Below are positions 678 through 20,555 of a stretch of 22,865 nucleotides of DNA, piece by piece. The position numbers and the translations under genes were made by a program. The notes beneath the pieces were generated by a model that was not told the origin of the DNA, made no database searches, and saw nothing but the letters and a program-made list of their open reading frames with translations. Position 1 is the stretch's first letter; each line of letters opens with the position of its first letter. The stretch is from positions 1 through 22,865 of the IMG/VR virus record IMGVR_UViG_3300033146_000500, one strand, 5' to 3'. This stretch comes from a virus.

Positions 678-1205
678 TTACAGTAGTTTATTGTATTCAG
701 CCCAATCGCAGGTTTTGAGGATCAGATCTCTGATTGATTTTACTGTCGCGCCGTTGTCGATATCATTTCGATAGCGTGTGATTTCGGTAACGTATAGTTT
801 CAGTGATTCCTCGAAGGCATACCATCGTGGTCCCTTGGTATATTCGTATGCTTTGAGACCGTGTCTTGATATACGTCGGTCTAGTATCTCAAGGTTTACG
901 ATTTTTCTTAGTGATCGTACCACGGTAATTCTCGCAAGGTCGAACATGTTTGCAAGTGTATCTTGTGTAATGGTTAGCGGGTAATCGTCGCATAATTCAG
1001 ATAGCATATATTGGATTATCTGCACTTGCGTTTTACTTACGAATGGTTTAACGAATCTGCTTGTGATGAATAGGCCAACTTTTGTGAAGTGACTGATATC
1101 TTCGATTGCTTCGATAGCATTGCATAGTCGTAGATATTGAGTAGATGATTTTATCATTTCTGTCGGCGGCTTTTCTTCGACGGGTTTGGTCGTTTCGTTT
1201 TCCAT
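678..1205 (-). CDS. Winged helix-turn-helix DNA-binding protein
   Basis: This 175-residue protein is the only convincing leftward gene. Its middle (about residues 60-120) reads as a winged helix: a first helix around QVQIIQYMLSEL, a helix-turn-helix around ITQDTLANMFDLARITVVRSL, then a basic strand-turn-strand wing around ILDRRISRHGLKAYEY. This arrangement is shared by MarR- and Crp-type regulators and by RepL-type plasmid replication proteins; I cannot decide between them from sequence. A start 20 codons upstream at 1265 is possible but would overlap the divergent methyltransferase gene, so ATG 1203-1205 is preferred, although it has no clear Shine-Dalgarno. It faces the repeat-rich region 1-677, which may hold its targets, and could regulate the late operon or replication. 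Confidence 0.75.
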   Translation of the reverse strand: MENETTKPVEEKPPTEMIKSSTQYLRLCNAIEAIEDISHFTKVGLFITSRFVKPFVSKTQVQIIQYMLSELCDDYPLTITQDTLANMFDLARITVVRSLRKIVNLEILDRRISRHGLKAYEYTKGPRWYAFEESLKLYVTEITRYRNDIDNGATVKSIRDLILKTCDWAEYNKLL

Positions 1206-1240
1206 GGTTGAATGGTACACTATAAATGGAGGTAACGCAA
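1206..1240. other. 35-base divergent intergenic gap
   Basis: This gap separates the start codons of the leftward winged-helix gene and the rightward methyltransferase gene. It holds the rightward ribosome binding site GGAGGT (1228-1233). A TATAAA at 1221-1226 is present but has no good -35 partner, and transcription would start inside the ribosome binding site. Promoters for the two genes therefore probably lie inside each other's coding sequence, or further away. Confidence 0.5.
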
Positions 1241-2557
1241 ATGGGTACATTTGATACATGGGCATCGCCGGATGAGGTCGAGTTAAACTTGGTGCGTGAT
1301 CGTATGGTGATGCGTCGGTTGAGTCAGTTGTGTGAATATGACAAGAACCCGAAGGAACACGATATCGAGATGATCAAGAGGTCGATAGTTGAGTTTGGGT
1401 ATACGTCGCCGATGATCGTGAACAGTGAGAACGGGATATTGCTTAGTGGCCATGGGCGGTTAATGGCGTTAAGGGAGCTATACGCGGATCGTCCGGATCT
1501 TCCCCCGGCTGGTGTGGCTCTGGTGGCCCCCGGAGAGCCTAAGGCGGGTGAGGATGGCATTTACGGGCACGAGTGGGCTGTCATGGTGATACAGGTGAGC
1601 ATCCACCCGGAGAAGCATTCCGAGTACGTCATCATGGATAACAAGACGGTCGAGAGTGGCGGATGGAATGAAACGGTATTGGCTGATCTATTGAAGAAGT
1701 CGATAAGTGTTGATCGTGTACAGTACACTGGATTTGATAACAAAGAGATACTGAGTATTATTGGTAAACGCGCGAACAGTGATTCGGAGTTAGATAAAGT
1801 TCATCGTCAATGGGATGATGATAAAGAAGAAACATATGGAGAGATTATCAATATTGTCGGTGTGCTTGAGCATGGCGCAAGGATATCATTCAATGGTGGG
1901 AATCACGTTCTTTACTATGGTGACGCAAGAGAGATTGTAAGTGATGATTTTCGGGTTAGTGTATTGTGTACTGATCCACCGTATTGTCATAATAAAGTGC
2001 ATGGTATTCGTAGCGCAAGGGAGTCGTCGATCAAGAATGATGATCTTGATGCTGCTGGATACATTGAGTTATTGCGCGGTGTTATTCCGCTGTCAATTAA
2101 GATGGCATATGTATTTACGCATTGGGCTTCATGGGTTCCTACAGCATGGATAATGGAGTCGCTTGGGTTCGATATTCAGACGATGGCGATATGGGACAAG
2201 AAGAGTCCGACGCTTGGCAATAATAATTGGCGTTGTCAGCATGAATTGATTTACGTCGGGTACCGTGATGTTGATAAGAAAACGCTACCAATTGCGCAAT
2301 ATGGAAATATGTTTCGCATGGCTACTGTTCCGTATAAGGGGCATCCGACCGCGAAGCCGATACAGTTAATATCGAATGTATTGTCGCGTGAAGTTATGCA
2401 GAACATGGTAGTGTTTGATCCATTTGCTGGAAGTGGAACCACGATGTTAGCGTGTGAGTCTTCCGGGTTGCGTAGTGTATCAATAGAGTTTGACGAGAAG
2501 TTCATATATGGATTGATTAAACGTGCGCTTGATTGGGGGTTAAAGATTGATAACTGA
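1241..2557 (+). CDS. ParB-like / DNA methyltransferase fusion
   Basis: This 438-residue protein joins two domains. The N-terminal ~100 residues resemble the ParB/Srx fold: a NPKEHD segment, an IVEFGYTSPMIVN strand-loop and the GHGRLMAL box. The C-terminal half is a beta-class amino-methyltransferase: DPPY (residues 245-248) precedes the SAM-binding DPFAGSGTT (393-401), the order typical of phage N6-adenine or N4-cytosine enzymes. It probably methylates phage DNA, protecting it from restriction or marking it for packaging. Start: ATG 1241 sits 7 bases after GGAGGT; the upstream ATG at 1226 overlaps that site and is rejected. The two halves differ sharply in base composition (42 of 60 G/C at 1501-1560, 21 of 60 at 1801-1860), suggesting a mosaic origin. 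It overlaps the terminase small subunit gene. The target sequence is not predictable. Confidence 0.9.
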   Translation: MGTFDTWASPDEVELNLVRDRMVMRRLSQLCEYDKNPKEHDIEMIKRSIVEFGYTSPMIVNSENGILLSGHGRLMALRELYADRPDLPPAGVALVAPGEPKAGEDGIYGHEWAVMVIQVSIHPEKHSEYVIMDNKTVESGGWNETVLADLLKKSISVDRVQYTGFDNKEILSIIGKRANSDSELDKVHRQWDDDKEETYGEIINIVGVLEHGARISFNGGNHVLYYGDAREIVSDDFRVSVLCTDPPYCHNKVHGIRSARESSIKNDDLDAAGYIELLRGVIPLSIKMAYVFTHWASWVPTAWIMESLGFDIQTMAIWDKKSPTLGNNNWRCQHELIYVGYRDVDKKTLPIAQYGNMFRMATVPYKGHPTAKPIQLISNVLSREVMQNMVVFDPFAGSGTTMLACESSGLRSVSIEFDEKFIYGLIKRALDWGLKIDN

Positions 2558-3200
2558 TGATACTGATGTTGTAGTAAGTGAAGAAGGTGATGATCAGCTT
2601 GATGACTTGATACCCGAGCCAGAGATTGCGCATATGGCTGAATGGTGGAATACATCTACGACGGTTAATCCAGTTGTGTTTGAGCGTAGAGTTAAAGTAG
2701 CGCAATTATGGAATAGGTACGGATATTCTGTTAAAGAGACCGCTGATATTCTCGGCGTTGATATGCACTTGGTTACGAGTGATCGTCGATGGTTAATCAG
2801 TCAATGGCAGCGTGTTGTTATTGCAGATATAAACGAGATCATTGGTCAACAATTGGCGAAGTTGGAGGATACTGAGAGGGAGCTTTGGGTCGCTTGGGAG
2901 AAGTCGAAAGAGGACGAGATTACGGTAACCGATCAGACGGTTGATGATATTGATGGGACACGCACGACACGCAAAACGGTAACACGTGGAAGATTGCCGG
3001 AGCATCGGTACATGGAATTGATACTGAAGGTTCAAGAGCGTAGATCAAAGTTACTCGGGTTAGACAAGATTCAAGATCTAGGTTCGACTACGTTTAACTT
3101 TGCGGTATTTGTCGAACAGGCATATCAAAAAGCTATTGAAAAAAGTGGACAAGTTTTGGATGTTACTCCTTTAGAGAACAGAATTGAGAGTGGAAAATGA
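2547..3200 (+). CDS. terS: Terminase small subunit
   Basis: A 217-residue protein predicted to recognise phage DNA and hand it to the large terminase. Residues ~50-85 form a helix-turn-helix (VAQLWNRYGYSVKETADILG, followed by a second helix with DRRWLISQW). The centre is a charged helical segment. A further helix with MELILKVQERRSKLLGLDK matches the C-terminal half of many phage small terminases. The proposed start is TTG 2547, 7 bases after GGGGG (2535-2539) and overlapping the end of the methyltransferase gene. The next in-frame ATG is 29 codons later with no ribosome binding site. The stop overlaps the next start as ATGA (3197-3200). The assignment rests on the helix-turn-helix, the C-terminal motif and its place before terL. 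Confidence 0.78.
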   Translation: MITDDTDVVVSEEGDDQLDDLIPEPEIAHMAEWWNTSTTVNPVVFERRVKVAQLWNRYGYSVKETADILGVDMHLVTSDRRWLISQWQRVVIADINEIIGQQLAKLEDTERELWVAWEKSKEDEITVTDQTVDDIDGTRTTRKTVTRGRLPEHRYMELILKVQERRSKLLGLDKIQDLGSTTFNFAVFVEQAYQKAIEKSGQVLDVTPLENRIESGK

Positions 3201-3893
3201 AGTTTATTGTATCGTTTTCAGGTGGTAAAGATTCAACTGCAATGTTATTTAAGTTAATTGAAAAGAAACTTCCAATTGATATTGGTAGAAAAAGAATTAA
3301 ATAAAATTGGATTAGAATTGGTTAGGCTTAGTCCAAAGATTCCTTTTGATAAGTGCATGGTATCTAAACCTGTTATAGCAAGAAGTGGGAAAATGAAAGG
3401 CAAAATTAAAAGATATGGATATGGCTGGCCAAGGTGGGACATGAGATGGTGTACTACTTTCAAAAGAGATACTATCAAAAAATGTATAAAAGAAAATTTT
3501 GGAAATAAATATATTACATATATTGGTATCGCAAAAGATGAAGAGAACAGAGTGAAAATTGCTAACAATATATTATATCCGTTAATAACATGGGGGATGA
3601 CCGAAAAAGATTGTTTGGATTATTGTTATTCACTTGGTTATAATTGGGGCGGTCTTTATGATAAGATGGATAGAGTATCTTGTTTTTGCTGTCCATTTCA
3701 GAGAGTATCTGAGCTAGAAGTGATTTTTAATGATTTCCCTGAGCTGTGGCAAAATATGTTAGATTTTGTTGACGCCAATTCTGAATATATGCAAGATTTC
3801 AAAAGTGGCAAACCGCTTGAGTATTATAATAAAAAATTTAGTGAAAAGAAATTTAATAGAGAATTGACAAAGAAGATGGCTTATGGAAAATAA
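3197..3893 (+). pseudogene. PAPS-reductase-like PP-loop enzyme, frameshifted by an internal deletion
   Basis: The gene starts at ATG 3197, overlapping the terS stop, and encodes MKFIVSFSGGKDSTAML, the classic SGGKDS pyrophosphatase loop of the phosphoadenylyl-sulfate reductase family. After 35 codons it hits a stop at 3302-3304. The rest of the family sequence continues in the +1 frame to 3893: GLELVRLSPK, a GYGWPRWDMRWCT segment, and CFCCPF. Intact relatives have about 20 residues after the first helix (a VDTG...EFPEMYEHI-like stretch) that are absent here, so an out-of-frame deletion near 3280 is the simplest explanation. The second half has an ATG at 3258 but no ribosome binding site. Composition is far more AT-rich than its neighbours (12 of 60 G/C at 3481-3540). 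In phages such genes are often tied to DNA or nucleotide modification; this copy is probably dead. Confidence 0.85.
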
Positions 3894-5406: not shown

Positions 5407-6765
5407 ATGGGGATGTTTGGTATCATAAACAAGGTCATCGCAAAGTCCGCCGGTGGTGCAAGTGTTATTTATTCGCAGCTTGGGTGGTCGGATGATTCGG
5501 GACCGGTTGGATCTAAGAAAGATGCGCTGGTAAAATCGTATTCAAAGATGCCATGGTTAGCGTCGGTCGCCGGGAAGATCGCTGATAATGTCGCTACTGT
5601 TCCATGGTATTTTGTTGTAGCAGGTAAAAATGGTAAGCCTGTAAAGTCGAAACAGTTGAAGCAAATGAATGTCGAGCAATTGCATAATCTGACGAAGAAG
5701 TCGGTATTCGATATAACTGAAGTTTACGATCACCCATTACTTGACATTCTTTCGGAACCCAACGAGTGGATGACTGGTTTTGATTTGTTTAAGTTGACTT
5801 CAATTCATCTTGATTTAGCTGGTTGTGCTTATTGGTATGTTTCTGGTGACGTACCGAATATTAAACTTTATCCAATTCCACCGGCATGGATTTTGTCATT
5901 ACCGAATAAAGTCGGTGATCCATATAAATTGAGAATGGATAAAAAGACGACTATTGGATCGGATGTAGATGGGATGCCGAAAGAAATACCATACGAAAGG
6001 GTTATTCCATTTCGGTCACCAAAGCCTTCGAGTCCGTATCGTGGAACAGTTGGTATTGCTGAGTCTGTTAGTGATGAATTGGCGACTGACGAATATGCCG
6101 CGAAATATATTAAAGCATTCTTTCTCAATGGCGCAAGACCTGATATTGTTGTTAGTGGTACTGGATTGTCTGCTGCTGAAACAGAACGTGCAGAGGCAAG
6201 ATGGACATCTAAATTACGTGGTTATTTGAAATCACACGCGCCGTACTTTTTGAATAAAGCGGTTACTGTCACTGAGCTTGGTAAATCGTTCAAGGACATG
6301 GATATTGTTAATTTGCGTAAATGGCAGCGTGACATTGTTATGCAGGTGTTCGGTATTCCGCCGGAGATTCTCGGTGTATTGGAATCGTCAAACCGTGCGA
6401 CTATTTCTGCTGCATCGTATTTGTTTACCAAGCAGGTTGTGATGCCACGTCTTGATAAAATTCGTAAGGTACTACAATACAGATTAGTTCCGATGTTCAA
6501 TGATACGATTATCCTTGCGTATGCGTCGCCGGTTGAAGAGGATAAAGAGTTCAGATTGAAGGTCATGGAAGTTGCGCCGTGGTGTTGGACGATTGATCAA
6601 TGGAGAGAGATTGTTGGTGATCCACCGTTGAGAAATAATCAAGGTGAACATGTTATGATCCCGGCACAATATGTTCCGACCCATGTGGACAATATCGAAG
6701 ATTTCATTTCGCCATATACGGCTGACGGATTGGTGACTACTGATAATAGCGGAGGTTCAAAATGA
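5407..6765 (+). CDS. Portal protein (HK97 type)
   Basis: A 452-residue portal that forms the dodecameric DNA gateway at the head vertex. Family features seen in order are: an N-terminal segment with WLASVAGKIADNVATVPW; the HPLLDILSEPNEWMTG stretch; the wing with GCAYWYV and LYPIPPAWI; the IPFRSPKPSSPYRG and SDELATDEYAAKYIKAFF segments; and the stem region FGIPPEILGVLESSNRAT followed by the amphipathic clip and crown. Of three close ATGs (5398, 5407, 5413), 5407 is best, 8 bases after AAGGA (5394-5398). The stop overlaps the protease start as ATGA (6762-6765), implying coupled translation. Confidence 0.93.
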   Translation: MGMFGIINKVIAKSAGGASVIYSQLGWSDDSGPVGSKKDALVKSYSKMPWLASVAGKIADNVATVPWYFVVAGKNGKPVKSKQLKQMNVEQLHNLTKKSVFDITEVYDHPLLDILSEPNEWMTGFDLFKLTSIHLDLAGCAYWYVSGDVPNIKLYPIPPAWILSLPNKVGDPYKLRMDKKTTIGSDVDGMPKEIPYERVIPFRSPKPSSPYRGTVGIAESVSDELATDEYAAKYIKAFFLNGARPDIVVSGTGLSAAETERAEARWTSKLRGYLKSHAPYFLNKAVTVTELGKSFKDMDIVNLRKWQRDIVMQVFGIPPEILGVLESSNRATISAASYLFTKQVVMPRLDKIRKVLQYRLVPMFNDTIILAYASPVEEDKEFRLKVMEVAPWCWTIDQWREIVGDPPLRNNQGEHVMIPAQYVPTHVDNIEDFISPYTADGLVTTDNSGGSK

Positions 6766-7808
6766 AGGGTATGAGTATCAAGGAATTGCGCGACAAACTT
6801 ACCGATGAGTCCGCTGAGGACATTACGGTTAAGGGAACCGCGATAACAGAAACATTGATTGCGAAGATTGACGCTTCTGATGTGCCAGATAATCTTGACG
6901 ATGGCGGTACAGTTGATTTTGTTATTTCGGATGATACCGTTGATTCGTATGGTGATATTGTTCGTGTTAGTGGTGTAGACCTTACTCGGTATGTTAAGAA
7001 TCCGGTAGTGCTGTGGGCGCACAACGGTCATGAACTTCCGATTGCGAAAGCAGTATCAATTGGTGTCGAAGGAAAAGAGTTGGTTTCGACCGCTGAATTC
7101 CCTGGACGTGATATTTATGATTTCGCAAATACAGTTTACAAACTATTGGTAAATAAATTTCTCAATGCTGTGAGTATTGGATTTAGCGTTCTTGAGTATG
7201 AACCGGTTGATCCCAAACAGCCGTATGGTGGATGGGATATTCTGAAATTCAAACTGAGTGAATATAGTGTCGTTCCGTTACCAGCGAATGAGAATGCGCT
7301 TGCGAAAGCATCTAACGTTATCGGCATGAAAGAGACGGTTGACTTTGCGACTAAGTTGCTTGATGGTGGAAATGTTTCTTTAACCGAAGCATATATGTCG
7401 CTCATTGGACATCGGAAGACTGTTGATTTTGGTGCTATTGACAGAATCAGCAAATGTGGTTCTATCTTTTGTTCGCGTTCTTCTGTTACAGTTGACAATG
7501 ATAACGAAAAAATACATAATGGAGAAGGGAGAAAACCAGATGACGGGGTAATTGAACCTGAAAGTAACGAGGACAAGAAAATGTTTATTGATACCAGAGA
7601 CCACGACGAAGAGATTGAAGTCAGAAAAACCATTGGTGTTGACATTACCGAGCATGAAGATCCGCTCGTTGTTGTTGCCAAGGGTGTGACGATCAGTGAT
7701 CCGCGCGACGATATTGTTATTGATATTGTTGACTACAGTGCGTCTAAAGCTCATGGTGTATTAAACGAAGATCAACTGAAAGAAGCTGTTTTTACCATTA
7801 AGTTTTGA
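6762..7808 (+). CDS. Prohead protease with a C-terminal extension
   Basis: This 348-residue protein begins with an HK97-type serine protease (about residues 45-195). Catalytic-type motifs are VLWAHNGHELP (His87 or His90), NAVSIGFSV (Ser138) and the closing SEYSVVPLPANENAL. It should cleave the scaffold-like N-terminus from the capsid protein and itself during head maturation. The family usually ends near residue 200. Here another ~150 residues follow: an acidic, low-complexity linker (about 240-290, rich in D, E, N) and a short beta-rich C-terminus with VVVAKGV and DDIVIDIVDYS. The extension may act as a scaffold or targeting part; I do not recognise it. GGAGGT (6751-6756) fixes the start. 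Confidence 0.9.
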   Translation: MKGMSIKELRDKLTDESAEDITVKGTAITETLIAKIDASDVPDNLDDGGTVDFVISDDTVDSYGDIVRVSGVDLTRYVKNPVVLWAHNGHELPIAKAVSIGVEGKELVSTAEFPGRDIYDFANTVYKLLVNKFLNAVSIGFSVLEYEPVDPKQPYGGWDILKFKLSEYSVVPLPANENALAKASNVIGMKETVDFATKLLDGGNVSLTEAYMSLIGHRKTVDFGAIDRISKCGSIFCSRSSVTVDNDNEKIHNGEGRKPDDGVIEPESNEDKKMFIDTRDHDEEIEVRKTIGVDITEHEDPLVVVAKGVTISDPRDDIVIDIVDYSASKAHGVLNEDQLKEAVFTIKF

Positions 7809-7839
7809 CGATTAACGCAATACATTGGAGGTATGCAAA

Positions 7840-9060
7840 ATGGAACTGACCATGGATCAACTCAAAGAAGTAGTCGCCGGTATCATGAAAGAGGTAAATC
7901 CTCATGGTATGGCACCTGACGTTCCCGGTGAGATCAAGCTGGGGACTGCCGATCCGATTGTTGACGCAATTACTGAGAAGGATGTATCTCGGGACATTAC
8001 CGGAATGTCTGCGAAAGAGCGTCGCCTTGCCATTGGACGTACCGTTCGTGCATTGGCCGCGACCAAGGGAAATGCATTTGCTGCTGATAAGTATGCTGAG
8101 AAGGTGTGGAATGAGTCGCCGGATTCGCATGTACGGAAAATCCTTGTTATCGGAACAGACGCTTCCGGTGGATTTTTGATCCCTGAGATTTTGTCTGACG
8201 ACTTTATCGAGCTTTACCGCCCCGTTGCTGTCGTGCGTAACCAGAACCCCGTTGAGATTCCGATGCCCGAAGGCAACATGAGCATGAATGGACTCGCATC
8301 CGGCGCAAGTGCAGACTACATCGGTGAGACGGAAAACCTGCCCGTTGGTGAGCAGACCTTCAGACGCATGTCGTTTTCTGCAAAGAAGCTCGCGGTATTG
8401 ACTCCGATCTCGAATGATCTGCTTTCCACGCCGTCGGGAAAAGTTGACCGTTTGGTTGCTGACGATATTTCGTATGCAACTGCCAGTCGTGAGGATATTG
8501 CATTTCTTCGCGGTGATGGTTCTGGTAACTCTCCTGTCGGGTTCAAGTCGCTGTGTCTTCCTGCGAACCTGATTCCGTCTGCGTGGATGGCTGGTACTTC
8601 TCTCGGTGATATCCGTCGTGATATTTACAAGCTGAAGAAAGCATTGCGGTATGCTGAAGTTCCCTTCCGTCTGCCGGTGTTGTTCATGAGTCCTAGGTCT
8701 GAATTTGCCGCTGAGCTGGCAATGGATAGCTACGGAAACACCCCGCTTGGAACTGAGATGCAGACCAAGGGTACCCTGATGGGCTTCCCCTTCGTTTCGA
8801 CGACTAAGATTCCTGACAACCTCGGTGCTGGCAGCGATGAGTCCGAAATCTACCTCGTAGATATGGCCGACGTTGTTGTTGCTGATATGACGCGCCCACA
8901 GATCGCTGCATCCATGGAAGCGTCGTATTTCGATGGAACTCAGATGCGCTCTGCATTCCATGCTGACCTGACTCTCATGCGTATCATCGCTCGTCACGAT
9001 TTCAACATGCGCCACCTTGAGTCCCTTGCGATTCTTACTGGCGTCAAGTGGGATGTGTGA
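7840..9060 (+). CDS. Major capsid protein (HK97 fold)
   Basis: A 406-residue shell protein. The first ~100 residues are helical and charged (MDQLKEVVAGIMKEV, AKERRLAIGRTVRAL) and look like the scaffolding delta domain removed by the protease. The mature part begins near IGTDASGGFLIPEI (about residue 104) and continues with typical HK97 elements: the E-loop region around GASADYIGETENLPVGEQTF, KLAVLTPISNDLL, FLRGDGSGNSPVGF, and the A-domain strands to the end. ATG 7840 lies 7 bases after GGAGGT (7827-7832); an in-frame TTG at 7825 overlaps that site and is rejected. Codons ending in C (TTC, AAC, GAC, ATC) are visibly commoner than in neighbouring genes, as expected for the most abundant virion protein. 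The exact cleavage site is not predicted. Confidence 0.95.
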   Translation: MELTMDQLKEVVAGIMKEVNPHGMAPDVPGEIKLGTADPIVDAITEKDVSRDITGMSAKERRLAIGRTVRALAATKGNAFAADKYAEKVWNESPDSHVRKILVIGTDASGGFLIPEILSDDFIELYRPVAVVRNQNPVEIPMPEGNMSMNGLASGASADYIGETENLPVGEQTFRRMSFSAKKLAVLTPISNDLLSTPSGKVDRLVADDISYATASREDIAFLRGDGSGNSPVGFKSLCLPANLIPSAWMAGTSLGDIRRDIYKLKKALRYAEVPFRLPVLFMSPRSEFAAELAMDSYGNTPLGTEMQTKGTLMGFPFVSTTKIPDNLGAGSDESEIYLVDMADVVVADMTRPQIAASMEASYFDGTQMRSAFHADLTLMRIIARHDFNMRHLESLAILTGVKWDV

Positions 9061-9065
9061 TAACC

Positions 9066-9278
9066 ATGATCGTTGTAAAATTCACAAGACGTTATGGTGT
9101 GTATCACACTGGTGAAGTCGCCGGATTTGATAAAGCGGCATTCGCAAAGGTTCCGAACGAATCTTGCGAAATCATTAGTCGCAATGGTGACGATGAAATC
9201 AAGCCCGACGAAGCAGAACCAGATGATGCTAAAAAGAAAAAAGTGAGAGTAAATGTAAAGACCAAAAAGGGGGCATGA
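9066..9278 (+). CDS. Small conserved phage protein after the capsid gene
   Basis: A 70-residue protein beginning MIVVKFTRRYGVYHTGEVAGF, a pattern I associate with short proteins near capsid genes of siphoviruses: a hydrophobic strand, then a YxxGEVAGF turn. The second half is acidic, then strongly basic (KKKKVRVNVKTKK), and probably disordered. GTG 9057 (overlapping the capsid stop) or ATG 9066 could be the start; ATG is preferred because it begins at the conserved strand. Function is unknown; a role in head assembly is inferred only from position. Confidence 0.7.
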   Translation: MIVVKFTRRYGVYHTGEVAGFDKAAFAKVPNESCEIISRNGDDEIKPDEAEPDDAKKKKVRVNVKTKKGA

Positions 9279-9279
9279 T

Positions 9280-9810
9280 ATGAAACATGCTTTGAGTGGT
9301 CCCGCTGACTTTGTTTTGGATATGAGTACGGCTCATATTTTTACTGCAAGCGGATTACCGACTGAAATTTCACACGCTTTTCAATGCCCGGTTGATACGC
9401 GAGCCGAAGTTGTATTTCTTCTTTCGTTCTCAACGTCGGGCGCAAATGCGAAATTGGGAATTGATGACGTTGTTATCAAGGGTGCGCATTCCGACCCAGG
9501 TTCTGGATGGGATAGTATTGCTGCACTTGAGATGCTTAGTCCCAAGCACAACTATTTTTATACCATTCCTGCAACGGCGCATCTTTCTGCAATTGCTGTG
9601 AAGATTCGCCCGACGTTTGAATGGAATCAAGTAACTTTGTCGCTTGCGAATAAAGATGGACTCGTTACCGGGATCAGTGGAACTGTCTATATGCACAATT
9701 ACGACAACAATTCACTTGAAAAAGAATGTGTTGATAGTGATGACATTTATGTCCCTCGGTTCTGGCGTCCTTCGTGTGAACTTGTTATTAGCAGTCAGAA
9801 GATGGATTGA
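9280..9810 (+). CDS. Putative head-associated protein, MKH(A/Q)LS family member 1
   Basis: A 176-residue protein of unknown function, predicted beta-rich (VVFLLSFSTSG, AKLGIDDVVIKG, SAIAVKIRP). It is the first of three consecutive genes that start MKH(A/Q)LS. Its LLSFSTSGANAKLGIDDVVI segment aligns with LLSFATATPAQMKIVGLEVR of member 3, and both end near a VPRFWR or SAVWR motif. It follows the capsid gene and precedes the connector gene, the usual place for decoration or head-fibre genes. The start is well supported by AAGGGGG (9267-9273). No catalytic motif, signal peptide or membrane segment is seen. A decoration role is inference. Confidence 0.75.
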   Translation: MKHALSGPADFVLDMSTAHIFTASGLPTEISHAFQCPVDTRAEVVFLLSFSTSGANAKLGIDDVVIKGAHSDPGSGWDSIAALEMLSPKHNYFYTIPATAHLSAIAVKIRPTFEWNQVTLSLANKDGLVTGISGTVYMHNYDNNSLEKECVDSDDIYVPRFWRPSCELVISSQKMD

Positions 9811-9822
9811 TGGAGGTATCAT

Positions 9823-10368
9823 ATGAAACACCAACTCAGTCCGTTTAATAATCATAACTTTGTTTCTGTTTCTCAAAACATCGGAGAATTTTCTGATACA
9901 GAGCAAACTCTTCTTGTACAATTTAGCATCAACAAAGAAATTGACGGTGATTCTCATTCGATTATTGTATTTATTAGGGGCGACAAGAAGAATCAAAGTG
10001 CTACTGGAGTATCTGCATTAGTCAGATATAGTGATGTGTGGCTCGCTGTTGATGATGCTGAGTGGAGTAATTTGCTGTCGAATGTTTACGATTGTTCTGA
10101 ACTCGAAAAGCATCCACTGTATATGGGTGCCGGAGTTCTTAATGTTTTTGAATTTGCCATCGACAAAACAAAAGCGTATGGAAGAATTGAATTGATGATT
10201 CCATGCATCACTAATATTACGATAAATGTCATTGCCGCATCAATGGTAACCGGTCTCAATGAACAGCCAAATGAACGTTCAGTATTGAGTGCTTATTCAT
10301 TGGATAGGCAACCGACGTATATTTTTCTTGAACCAGAATTGCCGAAAGCTCAGAGTGAGATGTCATGA
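9823..10368 (+). CDS. Putative head-associated protein, MKH(A/Q)LS family member 2
   Basis: A 181-residue protein beginning MKHQLS, with GGAGGT at 9812-9817 ahead of its start. Predicted strands include TLLVQFSIN, SIIVFIRGD, VLNVFEFAID and the hydrophobic ITNITINVIAA. It is more diverged than the other two and has an extra central segment containing two Trp (VWLAVDDAEWSN). The last ~30 residues (SVLSAYSLDRQ to the stop) may be flexible. The general order matches members 1 and 3: an N-terminal tag, a central hydrophobic strand around LL(V/S)xF, then further strands. Homology is therefore likely but not proven. The stop overlaps the start of the next gene as ATGA. Confidence 0.7.
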   Translation: MKHQLSPFNNHNFVSVSQNIGEFSDTEQTLLVQFSINKEIDGDSHSIIVFIRGDKKNQSATGVSALVRYSDVWLAVDDAEWSNLLSNVYDCSELEKHPLYMGAGVLNVFEFAIDKTKAYGRIELMIPCITNITINVIAASMVTGLNEQPNERSVLSAYSLDRQPTYIFLEPELPKAQSEMS

Positions 10369-10817
10369 AACATGCGCTGAGTGATTTGTCGTCACTGCTG
10401 ATCAAGGCTCCTTCTTCGTATATGAGGAATGTTCCACACGACTCATGGTTGAAAGAGGTTATAGATTTTACGTTTGATACAGCAAAAGAAGAGTGTGCTG
10501 GGTATACTCTTTTGCTTAGTTTTGCAACTGCTACACCAGCGCAAATGAAAATTGTCGGACTAGAAGTTAGGGATACGGCGAACGCTAACAATAAAATGTC
10601 ATGCGATCTTGATGTTAAAATTGAGACCACATTAAATCCTGTTTATATTTTGGTGCCAATTCCAAAGCTATTTACACTTAGCGAAGGTTTCGCGATTGAT
10701 GTTATTCACGATCTTGACAATAAAGAAAATAACGCATTGCTGATTGGCACGAACCCAAAGAACACTGATTACGACAAAGAAGGTGTAACTGTTATTGATT
10801 CTGCTGTTTGGAGATAA
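10365..10817 (+). CDS. Putative head-associated protein, MKH(A/Q)LS family member 3
   Basis: A 150-residue protein beginning MKHALS. At the DNA level its first 20 bases match those of member 1 at 17 positions, although the proteins differ widely after residue 6. Predicted strands include GYTLLLSFATAT, MKIVGLEVRD and PVYILVPIP. It ends with a SAVWR tail resembling the PRFWR of member 1. Its start overlaps the stop of member 2 (10365-10368), with only a weak GAGTGAG upstream, so translation is probably coupled. It is followed directly by the head-tail connector gene. Function is unknown. Confidence 0.72.
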   Translation: MKHALSDLSSLLIKAPSSYMRNVPHDSWLKEVIDFTFDTAKEECAGYTLLLSFATATPAQMKIVGLEVRDTANANNKMSCDLDVKIETTLNPVYILVPIPKLFTLSEGFAIDVIHDLDNKENNALLIGTNPKNTDYDKEGVTVIDSAVWR

Positions 10818-10820
10818 GTG

Positions 10821-11537
10821 ATGATTGAAGTATTAGAACCAGCATCGACTCTTGATCTCGTGACACCAGACATGGTAACTCGTGGATGGGATGAGGTTGA
10901 TGACTTATCTTCGGATGAGGTCGAGTTGGCTATTGCTGCTTCATCACGATCTTTCAATCATTGGTGCGGTAGAGTGTTTTCAAGTCAACGGTATCTTGAA
11001 ACAATGGAAGCGTCCCATACGTTGAAGTTGATACTTCGTGAAGGTCCAATTAGCGACGTAAGCGAAGTGCTTAGTATGGGTGCGCCAGTCATTGATTATA
11101 TCGTAGACAAGGAAACAAGCATATTACATAAGAACAATATGATCCCGTGGTATGGTCCACTGAGGAGAGACGGTGTGTTGCGGGACAGCTTTGCCGCCTA
11201 CGACATACCGCTTTCACTTACGGTGGACTATATCGCGGGTTATATTACACAACCGATGATTGAATTAGATCCGACTGTCGGTGATAAAACAATTCCCGTT
11301 GATCTTGAGTATGCGTGTATTGTACAATCAAGAATCGTTATCAAAGGGTTGCGTGGCATGCCTGTCGGGATTCCTCAAAGTATTGTTGTGGGACCATACG
11401 AGGCTAAACATGCTACCGTTGATTCGATGGTTGGATCTGGCTCTGGATATTGGGCGACAGCAATTGCTGATCCTACAATCATGTGGCTTCCGCTTGAAGT
11501 AAGACGCACGTTGGTTTTATATCGCAGGACATTCTGA
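10821..11537 (+). CDS. Head-tail connector (adaptor) protein
   Basis: A 238-residue neck protein expected to sit under the portal. Near the N-terminus, the helix VELAIAASSRSFNHWCGRVF matches the helical core of gp6/gp15-like connectors, where a tryptophan/cysteine-glycine-arginine helix is typical. The rest is beta and loop (LKLILREGPISDVSEV, LTVDYIAGY), and another helix (LEYACIVQSRIVIKGL) follows. ATG 10821 lies 6 bases after GGAGA; a GTG directly before it is not needed. The stop TGA overlaps the next ATG. The family call rests on the helix pattern and gene order. Confidence 0.78.
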   Translation: MIEVLEPASTLDLVTPDMVTRGWDEVDDLSSDEVELAIAASSRSFNHWCGRVFSSQRYLETMEASHTLKLILREGPISDVSEVLSMGAPVIDYIVDKETSILHKNNMIPWYGPLRRDGVLRDSFAAYDIPLSLTVDYIAGYITQPMIELDPTVGDKTIPVDLEYACIVQSRIVIKGLRGMPVGIPQSIVVGPYEAKHATVDSMVGSGSGYWATAIADPTIMWLPLEVRRTLVLYRRTF

Positions 11538-18694: not shown

Positions 18695-19482
18695 GAGGAT
18701 TAACACCAGAACAGATACGAGCGTTGTCCGCAAAGGTCTCGAAGATCAAAGTATTGCTTGAGATCCCCGGATTAGACATACATTACTGCACGGGTAATGT
18801 AGGTGGAAGATCGAATAATATTACATACCATCCAAGGCAGCTAAAAATTGGTAGCATTATTTTTGGTGATCCAACTAAATTAAAGATGGTTGTATCAATT
18901 GATAATGTTGATAATAAAGTTAGTAGGAAAATGAGTAATGTCGTCGCTTCTGGTCAAACTGCAAAACTTCATCTTATTTCGTTTTATCCCGGCAGTAGTG
19001 ACATTATTGGTGTTATTACTCTTATTGACGGTAATCTTGTGCGTTGTGAAATTAATTCGAGAACTGCAAATATTGACATATCTGCAAACGTGGTTCGCAA
19101 TAGAGCTGGCGCGTTAATAACTGGGTCACGATCATGCGGTAATAAATTTACTGATGCGCTGTGTAAATATTCTGGAACAGATACGGAATGCAATCATACG
19201 TGGATGGATTGTTTTGCAAAAGGAAATGTTGCAAACTTTAATGGATTTAGATTTGCACCAGTTGGCGGCATGCAGATTATGGTCGAAGCCGCGCCGGTTC
19301 CAGTTGGATATTCTGGTGGCGGTGGTGGGTCATGGGATAATCCACAAGATGACATGTATCAGATTGGGGATTGCATGTGGTGGGAATTGTTGTTTTGGGG
19401 TTGTGACGAATATTTTGATGTTGATGATTCGATGTTCGTTGATACGTTAATGATAAATTCGTCTGAGTTTGGAGCTGTGTAA
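18691..19482 (+). CDS. Tail-tip protein with gpL-like four-cysteine segment
   Basis: A 263-residue protein located directly after the tape measure gene. The N-terminal ~140 residues are beta-rich (KVLLEIPGLDIHYC, KLKMVVSIDNVDNKV, LHLISFYPGS). Then come four spaced cysteines, C149-x8-C158-x8-C167-x6-C174, followed by KGNVANFNGF. This resembles the C-terminal part of lambda gpL, in which four cysteines bind an iron-sulfur cluster before an N-x-x-x-F-x-GF sequence. The cluster here is inferred. A glycine run (GYSGGGGG) and an acidic, Trp/Cys-rich tail (CMWWELLFWGCDEY) end the protein. Its start overlaps the tape measure stop, so it is probably translationally coupled. It should help build the tail tip with the next two genes. 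Confidence 0.75.
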   Translation: MRGLTPEQIRALSAKVSKIKVLLEIPGLDIHYCTGNVGGRSNNITYHPRQLKIGSIIFGDPTKLKMVVSIDNVDNKVSRKMSNVVASGQTAKLHLISFYPGSSDIIGVITLIDGNLVRCEINSRTANIDISANVVRNRAGALITGSRSCGNKFTDALCKYSGTDTECNHTWMDCFAKGNVANFNGFRFAPVGGMQIMVEAAPVPVGYSGGGGGSWDNPQDDMYQIGDCMWWELLFWGCDEYFDVDDSMFVDTLMINSSEFGAV

Positions 19483-20555
19483 TGTTTAATTTCATATGGC
19501 CAGAATGGTGTAAGGTTATCGGTGATGTTAATCAGGACGTTGATGATGGGATTATTTCAAATAAGTTTATGACCGGGCCGGGGTTGGCGAGAACGTATTA
19601 CGACATGCCATTGAATACGTTTGGCGTGACACTGCTTGAGTCATCTGGTCAGACTGAGTTGAACTTTCGCAATAATCAATTCGTGCATTATTTAGCACAA
19701 TTGCATCCTGTATGGTTTACTCCGGGAAGGTCTGAGTTCATATCGAATTTTCCGATTGGCATTGGTGATGGAGTTCGCAAGACATTCGTGGTGCCATTAA
19801 ATGCGACCGCTGGATTGGATAAAAATTTCAGTGTATTAATTGGTGACTTTCCGGTTACCTTTACGGCGACTTCTAGTGCGCATATTTATAATGGTGATAT
19901 TGGGATCAATTTAATGCAAGCATCATCATGGAATACGTCTGGCGCAAATTTTTGTGGCAAAAGTTATTTACCATTTTACAGTGAATATCCATTAAAAATT
20001 GATCTTGACGGAACGATAATCGCCGCTGAAGCAACAATCAGAAAGGTGCTTTATAATGCGACTGATTTTAATAACCTTGGATTCATCCATGCTGCTATTG
20101 ATTTTATTGCATTATATGGTGATTCGGCAAGCGGGTCAATTGAATTGTGGATAGGGTTTCGTGATTCTGGCGGTGTGCAAATAAGTTACATATCAGCATC
20201 ACAAAGTGAGTCTGGAATGCTAGAATTAACCGGTGTTGTTCCATCGCATACAGACAGTATTGATGTAAAGATTATCGCAAGAACCGATGCTAAAAATTCA
20301 TGGTTATTTAATTTCTTCAGTGTGGCACCTATGGATGTCAAAGGAGAATATTTTATGAATGACGCAAGACCATTGATAATCAAATTAGACGCAGTCCCCG
20401 CTGACGGTGTGGTTGTAAGCATTGATCGTCATCTTACTGGCGAGGGTCAATTACTTGAACCGTTGATGCGGAAATGTGTAGCAAATAATATCAAGCATAC
20501 CACGTCACCTGCTGGTCATCGTGCATTTAATATTGAAATGATTGAGGTACAGTGA
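19482..20555 (+). CDS. Minor tail / tail-tip protein with an inserted beta domain
   Basis: A 357-residue protein between the gpL-like and hub genes. The N-terminal ~90 residues (TGPGLARTYYDMPLNTFGV, NNQFVHYLAQLHPVWFTPG) look like a virion core domain. A split motif follows: GIGDGVRKTFVVPL...FSVLIGDFPVTFT (about 90-130) and, much later, IIKLDAVPADGVVVSID (about 300-315), which together form a strand-pair unit often continuous in tail proteins. Between them lies a ~160-residue jelly-roll-like stretch (KIDLDGTIIAAEATIR, GSIELWIGFRDSGG, SIDVKIIARTDAKN) resembling carbohydrate-binding modules. Receptor or glycan contact is possible but unproven. The start overlaps the preceding stop (TAATG), and the end overlaps the hub start. 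Confidence 0.65.
   Translation: MFNFIWPEWCKVIGDVNQDVDDGIISNKFMTGPGLARTYYDMPLNTFGVTLLESSGQTELNFRNNQFVHYLAQLHPVWFTPGRSEFISNFPIGIGDGVRKTFVVPLNATAGLDKNFSVLIGDFPVTFTATSSAHIYNGDIGINLMQASSWNTSGANFCGKSYLPFYSEYPLKIDLDGTIIAAEATIRKVLYNATDFNNLGFIHAAIDFIALYGDSASGSIELWIGFRDSGGVQISYISASQSESGMLELTGVVPSHTDSIDVKIIARTDAKNSWLFNFFSVAPMDVKGEYFMNDARPLIIKLDAVPADGVVVSIDRHLTGEGQLLEPLMRKCVANNIKHTTSPAGHRAFNIEMIEVQ

Follow-up and report, generated by a model that had tools for sequence, protein, structure and literature searches.

The virus record IMGVR_UViG_3300033146_000500 of IMG/VR (22,865 bases, analysed whole and hereafter called the window) carries three consecutive genes, g1, g2 and g3, between the gene of its major capsid protein (MCP) and that of its head-tail adaptor. 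Their products begin with the same short peptide, MKH(A/Q)LS, hereafter the tag, and continue into divergent bodies. Here, we show that the tag is kept in a sister contig in which the bodies of g2 and g3 have been replaced as a cassette, next to a nearly identical MCP. We favour the reading that g1-g3 are three jelly-roll decoration (cement) proteins with a common N-terminal capsid-docking peptide, and give it an even chance; a constant MCP and a constant tag beside replaced bodies fit such a model.

The common tag and the swapped cassette

All three genes lie on the + strand. The 176-amino-acid product of g1 (9280..9810) starts with MKHALSGPADF, that is, the tag MKHALS (9280..9297) followed by a 170-amino-acid body. 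g2 (9823..10368, 181 amino acids) starts with MKHQLSPFNNH, its tag MKHQLS lying at 9823..9840, and g3 (10365..10817, 150 amino acids) with MKHALSDLSSL, its tag MKHALS lying at 10365..10382. This bears out the original prediction of three genes starting with MKH(A/Q)LS; indeed, M[KR]HxL starts occur in the six frames of the window at g1, g2 and g3 only. As a chance control, we used 2434 distinct open reading frames (ORFs) of at least 100 amino acids from 143 other loci, among which 112 start with MK and two with MKH, while two of the 1151 adjacent pairs have at least four of residues 2-6 in common. Given how rare MKH starts and matching neighbours are, the shared start of g1-g3 exceeds chance.

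The DNA of the tag is also conserved. As had been predicted, g1 and g3 are near-identical over the six codons (16/18 bases, both differences being synonymous, GCT/GCG and TTG/CTG), and ATGAAACA is identical at the starts of all three genes. The shared start could thus be a DNA or RNA element, serving efficient translation initiation through A-rich early codons or acting as a recombination joint for cassette exchange, all the more as the g2-g3 swap described below has its left edge at ATGAAACA. We regard this as very improbable. Indeed, synonymous changes occur within the tag between paralogues and between orthologues while the residues are kept, on its right side the swap ends at the g3 stop, where there is no tag, and the remaining genes of the window start otherwise.

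The same genes are carried by the sister contig L001 (IMG/VR record 3300028029_000095). Protein identity between the two is 98.7% for the portal, 97.8% for the MCP, 93.7% for the prohead protease and 87.5% for g1, and falls to 47% for g2 and 28-31% for g3. Synonymous divergence (dS) is 0.33 for the MCP, 0.34 for the portal, 0.42 for the protease and 0.51 for g1, and reaches 2.1 in g2 and 1.7 in g3, with sharp borders. At the DNA level, identity is high up to the end of g1 and through the ATGAAACA of g2, then drops abruptly. The divergent cassette (9835..10817, + strand) extends from g2 past its tag, where its left breakpoint is sited, through the g3 stop. Identity within it is about 40-66% per 50 columns, the maximum of 66% including the conserved g2/g3 junction, against 74-100% on the left flank (g1) and 50/50 in the first 50 bases past the g3 stop. 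The G+C content of the cassette is 0.38-0.39, compared with 0.44-0.52 in g1, the adaptor and the MCP gene. Because of the jump in dS and the sharp identity borders, these data are best read as the replacement of the g2-g3 cassette by a long-diverged allele, rather than as fast drift.

Across this replacement the tag persists, the pairs in the window and L001 being MKHALS/MKHALS in g1, MKHQLS/MKHQID in g2 and MKHALS/MKHALT in g3, with synonymous changes within it (CAC/CAT in g2; GCG/GCA and CTG/CTA in g3). In g3, residues 1-5 are the sole fully conserved five-residue run in 151 positions; in g2, conservation of residues 1-5 is unexceptional, 31 of 177 windows being equally good. Since the residues are kept despite synonymous changes while the bodies diverge, the tag is constrained at the protein level, most clearly in g3. 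The original prediction named loss of the motif in orthologues as evidence to the contrary; L001 keeps the tag even though its g3 is only 28% identical. The retention of the tag peptide, the replacement of the bodies and the 98% identity of the MCP together support a function of the tag in contacting a partner that stays constant; capsid docking would be the simplest case. The proposed docking function is therefore strengthened on this side; on the other side, no profile link was found between g1-g3 and cement families, and the structural models are of low confidence (see below). The alternative role proposed for the tag, in processing, found no specific support.

The presumed decoration slot in related phages

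The trio was predicted to sit where decoration genes occur, and synteny supports this. A 44 kb record, L038, is colinear with the window from the terminase to the tape measure, with 12 genes matched by blastp (identities of 32% for a small ORF downstream of the MCP gene, 43.5% for the adaptor and 54% for the tail tube), and a second one, L013, is colinear over the compared part, from the protease onward; their MCPs are about 40% identical to that of the window. In both, a single 148-amino-acid gene (MKKSIGT...) occupies the slot of g1-g3. The order terminase-portal-protease-MCP-small ORF (68 or 76 amino acids)-slot-adaptor is thus common to the window and L038 and, from the protease on, to L013. 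Among wider relatives (MCP 36-44% identical), one gene matched by phrog_5707 lies in the neighbourhood of the slot, next to the MCP gene. The loci of this family are L006, L010, L014, L015, L016, L018, L022, L041, L043, L044, L047, L057, L073, L074 and L083.

Members of this phrog_5707-like family have a short N-terminal motif, DIGA(F/Y)xK, and a variable body. We aligned them with the two 148-amino-acid genes (alignment A9) and compared the resulting profile with all PDB sequences. At E <10 it matched two entries, 3j4u, which is the cement protein Bbp16 of Bordetella phage BPP-1 (E 0.024), and 8cjz, whose matching chain bears the name Capsid Decoration Protein (E 0.2); both outscore 150/150 column shuffles. 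The E-values are weak, yet it is telling that both matches are decoration proteins and that there is no third. Since the profile matches no PDB sequences but these two, phrog_5707, to which PHROGs assigns no function, probably represents a family of capsid cement or decoration proteins.

The family resembles the trio in its place between the MCP and adaptor genes, in its length and in combining a short N-terminal motif with a variable body. It differs by its DIGA(F/Y)xK start and its single copy, and g1-g3 were left unmatched by the phrog_5707 profile at E up to 1. The likeness to Bbp16 itself lies in the head-auxiliary role proposed for g1-g3, the similar size of Bbp16 (140 amino acids), the beta-sandwich or jelly roll predicted for g1 and g2, the N-terminal loop by which Bbp16 contacts the shell (PMC3863775) and the profile link through the slot family of the relatives; the differences are that BPP-1 has one such gene and not three, and that g1-g3 themselves have no significant sequence match to it.

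Predicted folds and relations of the bodies

We modelled g1 and g2 with AlphaFold2 from two-sequence alignments. Both low-confidence models are all-beta, with 9-11 strands arranged in a beta-sandwich of the same strand order. In g1, the strands are at residues 19-24, 29-35, 42-52, 57-68, 92-96, 104-109, 115-125 and 129-140, in a sandwich spanning 19-149; in g2, they are at 17-20, 29-35, 44-53, 61-76, 106-112, 121-128 and 134-143. The N-terminus is loose in both, the first ~18 residues of g1 being outside the fold. Among solved structures, the models come closest to beta-sandwiches, of which many are jelly-roll or carbohydrate-binding domains (Z at most 7.9 and 7.4). Kinship to VP2 of infectious bursal disease virus, to receptor-binding domains of binary toxins or to carbohydrate-binding modules was rejected, since all of these scored Z <8 and were taken to reflect a common arrangement. 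The structure comparison called for at the outset thus gives the same strand order for g1 and g2, in models of low confidence.

The faint similarity reported between the bodies is weak at best. Compared over their full length, g1 and g3 give p = 0.003 (local), and without the first seven residues p = 0.11 (local) and 0.03 (global). Profiles compared after removal of the tag give p = 0.53 for g1-g3, 0.04 for g1-g2 and 0.36 for g2-g3. With hhalign, the first 66 residues of g1 and g3 show a weak similarity (P 1.5e-4), to which the tag contributes in part. The two features singled out by the original prediction are not generally kept: in place of the LLSF strand, g3 of L001 has IISG, and the W-R end is terminal in g3 only, g1 having 13 residues after its WR and g2 having no WR. 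The adjacency of the genes and the weak resemblance of g1 and g3 over their first 66 residues would suit a tag that is merely the best-preserved relic of a tandem duplication, or a part of the sandwich core or of an oligomer interface, with no common docking partner. We find this unlikely; indeed, the g3 tag is the only conserved run of five while the remainder falls to 28%, which argues for a separate constraint on it, and the models of g1 and g2 place the tag outside the fold.

Searches with g1-g3 in Pfam, PHROGs, NCBIfam and PDB sequences returned no credible match; g1 has a weak match to phrog_12505 (E 0.0084), and the beta-propellers among the PDB sequence results for the three proteins were not counted as credible. 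No match was found by tblastn in 50,697 phage records. Scans of IMG/VR with g1, g2, g3 and the back-translated MKHALSGPADFV recovered the sister contig only, and a DNA pattern of two MKHxL starts about 540 bases apart recovered, besides the sister contig, two chance matches that are not gene starts. No hit was found in GTDB genomes with the g1 alignment. MKHxL[STDN] genes occur in none of the 54 GTDB loci found with the MCP alignment (best MCP about 43%), and MKHxL genes in none of the 79 IMG/VR loci that, apart from the sister, encode an MCP relative (about 44% at best). At the sensitivity of these searches, which rely on short patterns, tagged trios thus turned up neither in the 50,697 phage records (at the protein level) nor in IMG/VR nor among the representative genomes of GTDB. 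The proposed search for MKH(A/Q)LS proteins near capsid genes of other phages hence yielded none beyond the sister contig.

Several points weigh against g1-g3 being decoration proteins on a docking peptide. First, profile comparison links them neither to the L038 gene nor to phrog_5707 or Bbp16: hhalign of g1-g3 with the gene of L038 and L013 and with phrog_5707 members is not significant, direct comparison with Bbp16 gives p 0.12-0.25 (not significant), comparison with the 8cjz fragment is not significant either, and hhalign of alignment A8 with alignment A1, made for the phrog_5707 test, gives P 0.28. Second, the members of A9 were partly picked by DIGA(F/Y)xK, so that conservation of this motif is partly by construction; the independently made phrog_5707 profile spans the motif in its best matches. 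Third, confidence in the models is low (for g1, a predicted local distance difference test (pLDDT) of 51.7 and a predicted template modelling score (pTM) of 0.53; for g2, 42.3 and 0.45), and Z below 8 may signal only a common arrangement. Finally, homology of the g2 body with those of g1 and g3 is unproven, and all variation data come from the one sister contig. Altogether, the prediction of three decoration-like proteins is supported in part: it gains from the synteny of the slot and the retention of the tag, and is held back by the profile comparisons and the low-confidence models.

Alternatively, g1-g3 could be internal head proteins, brought into the prohead by an N-terminal capsid-targeting sequence and bearing variable bodies that would leave the head together with the DNA, perhaps for counter-defence, as IPI, IPII and IPIII of T4. 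In T4, IPII and IPIII have a common capsid-targeting sequence of ~10 amino acids, the prohead protease trims all of IPI-III, and IPI acts as an ejected nuclease inhibitor (PMC9958956). Several proteins with a common short start, very different bodies and the replacement of alleles would fit such a role, and the window encodes a prohead protease (6762-7808, PF04586). We nevertheless judge it improbable. The slot is the presumed cement-gene slot of the relatives, g1-g3 are acidic (net charge -7 to -10, most members of the slot family being acidic too), and all-beta sandwiches are predicted for g1 and g2. Moreover, g1-g3 have only 5-6 residues in common compared with ~10, with no common cleavage-like site after the tag. 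T4 IPII and IPIII are internal proteins that undergo cleavage by the prohead protease and are ejected, and their genes lie at another genomic location.

The head module and a model of modular decoration

The trio is embedded in a classic head-tail module, in the order terminase, portal, prohead protease, MCP, small ORF, g1, g2, g3, head-tail adaptor, tail tube and tape measure. The MCP (7825..9060, + strand) has the HK97 fold (Phage_capsid PF05065, Pfam E 1.1e-30; major head protein in PHROGs) and is the presumed constant docking partner of the tag. It is followed by the small ORF (9048..9278, + strand), of 76 amino acids when read from GTG 9048, whose counterpart at the same place in L038 is an ORF of 68 amino acids. 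An ATG start at 9067 (MIVVKF) seems likelier than the listed GTG 9048, which overlaps the MCP gene. In L001 (3724-3999), this ORF has an acidic 15-amino-acid insertion with DDTEADEVETDEVKT-like repeats. g2 is preceded by a good Shine-Dalgarno sequence (GGAGG), and the start of g3 overlaps the g2 stop (ATGA). The adaptor gene (10818..11537, + strand; phrog_442, E 4.6e-11) forms the right border of the trio.

Elsewhere in the window, next to the terminase genes, a DNA methyltransferase gene (1226-2557, N6_N4_Mtase PF01555), the N-terminal part of which is ParB-like by eye, is divergent from a Crp-like helix-turn-helix gene (678-1265, minus strand). Between a small ORF (2547-3200) and the large terminase gene, an ORF of 211 amino acids with a TTG start (3258-3893) has no Pfam match at E up to 1 and contains a CFCC cysteine cluster, which we take to resemble those of 3'-phosphoadenosine 5'-phosphosulfate (PAPS) reductase-like phage proteins. 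Finally, a tail-module protein (19482-20555) has an apparent beta-rich insertion at about residues 150-290, possibly carbohydrate-binding.

The combination of a conserved capsid-binding part with a variable exposed beta-sandwich is known from pb10 of T5, in which a conserved N-terminal part binds the capsid and an immunoglobulin (Ig) domain is exposed (PMC5292684), and from Hoc of T4 (PMC7602432). Unlike the trio, these are encoded by one gene; their binding part is a folded domain and not a hexapeptide as proposed for g1-g3, and their fold is Ig and not the proposed jelly roll.

Under the decoration reading, the trio would have replaced the single decoration gene of this slot, through duplication or recruitment. 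Each protein would consist of a jelly-roll-like beta-sandwich, lying on the capsid or projecting from it, and of a flexible MKH(A/Q)LS peptide that would dock on the conserved MCP shell after head expansion. If the docking peptide is enough to place a module, the bodies would be free to diverge or to be exchanged between phages, and the peptide and the MCP would have stayed constant while g2-g3 were exchanged between the window phage and its sister. The bodies, exposed on the head, might serve capsid stability or bind cell-surface glycans.

Descriptions of phage heads usually include one or two decoration proteins. It is possible, although we hold it doubtful, that a single head here bears three beta-sandwich modules on the same hexapeptide and that near-identical capsids swap cassettes of them, with the left border in the tag. 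If true, a head with three tagged modules, of which close relatives have swapped two, would mean that head surfaces can evolve by module exchange like tail fibres, and the six-residue docking peptide would offer a minimal handle for studies of capsid-decoration binding.
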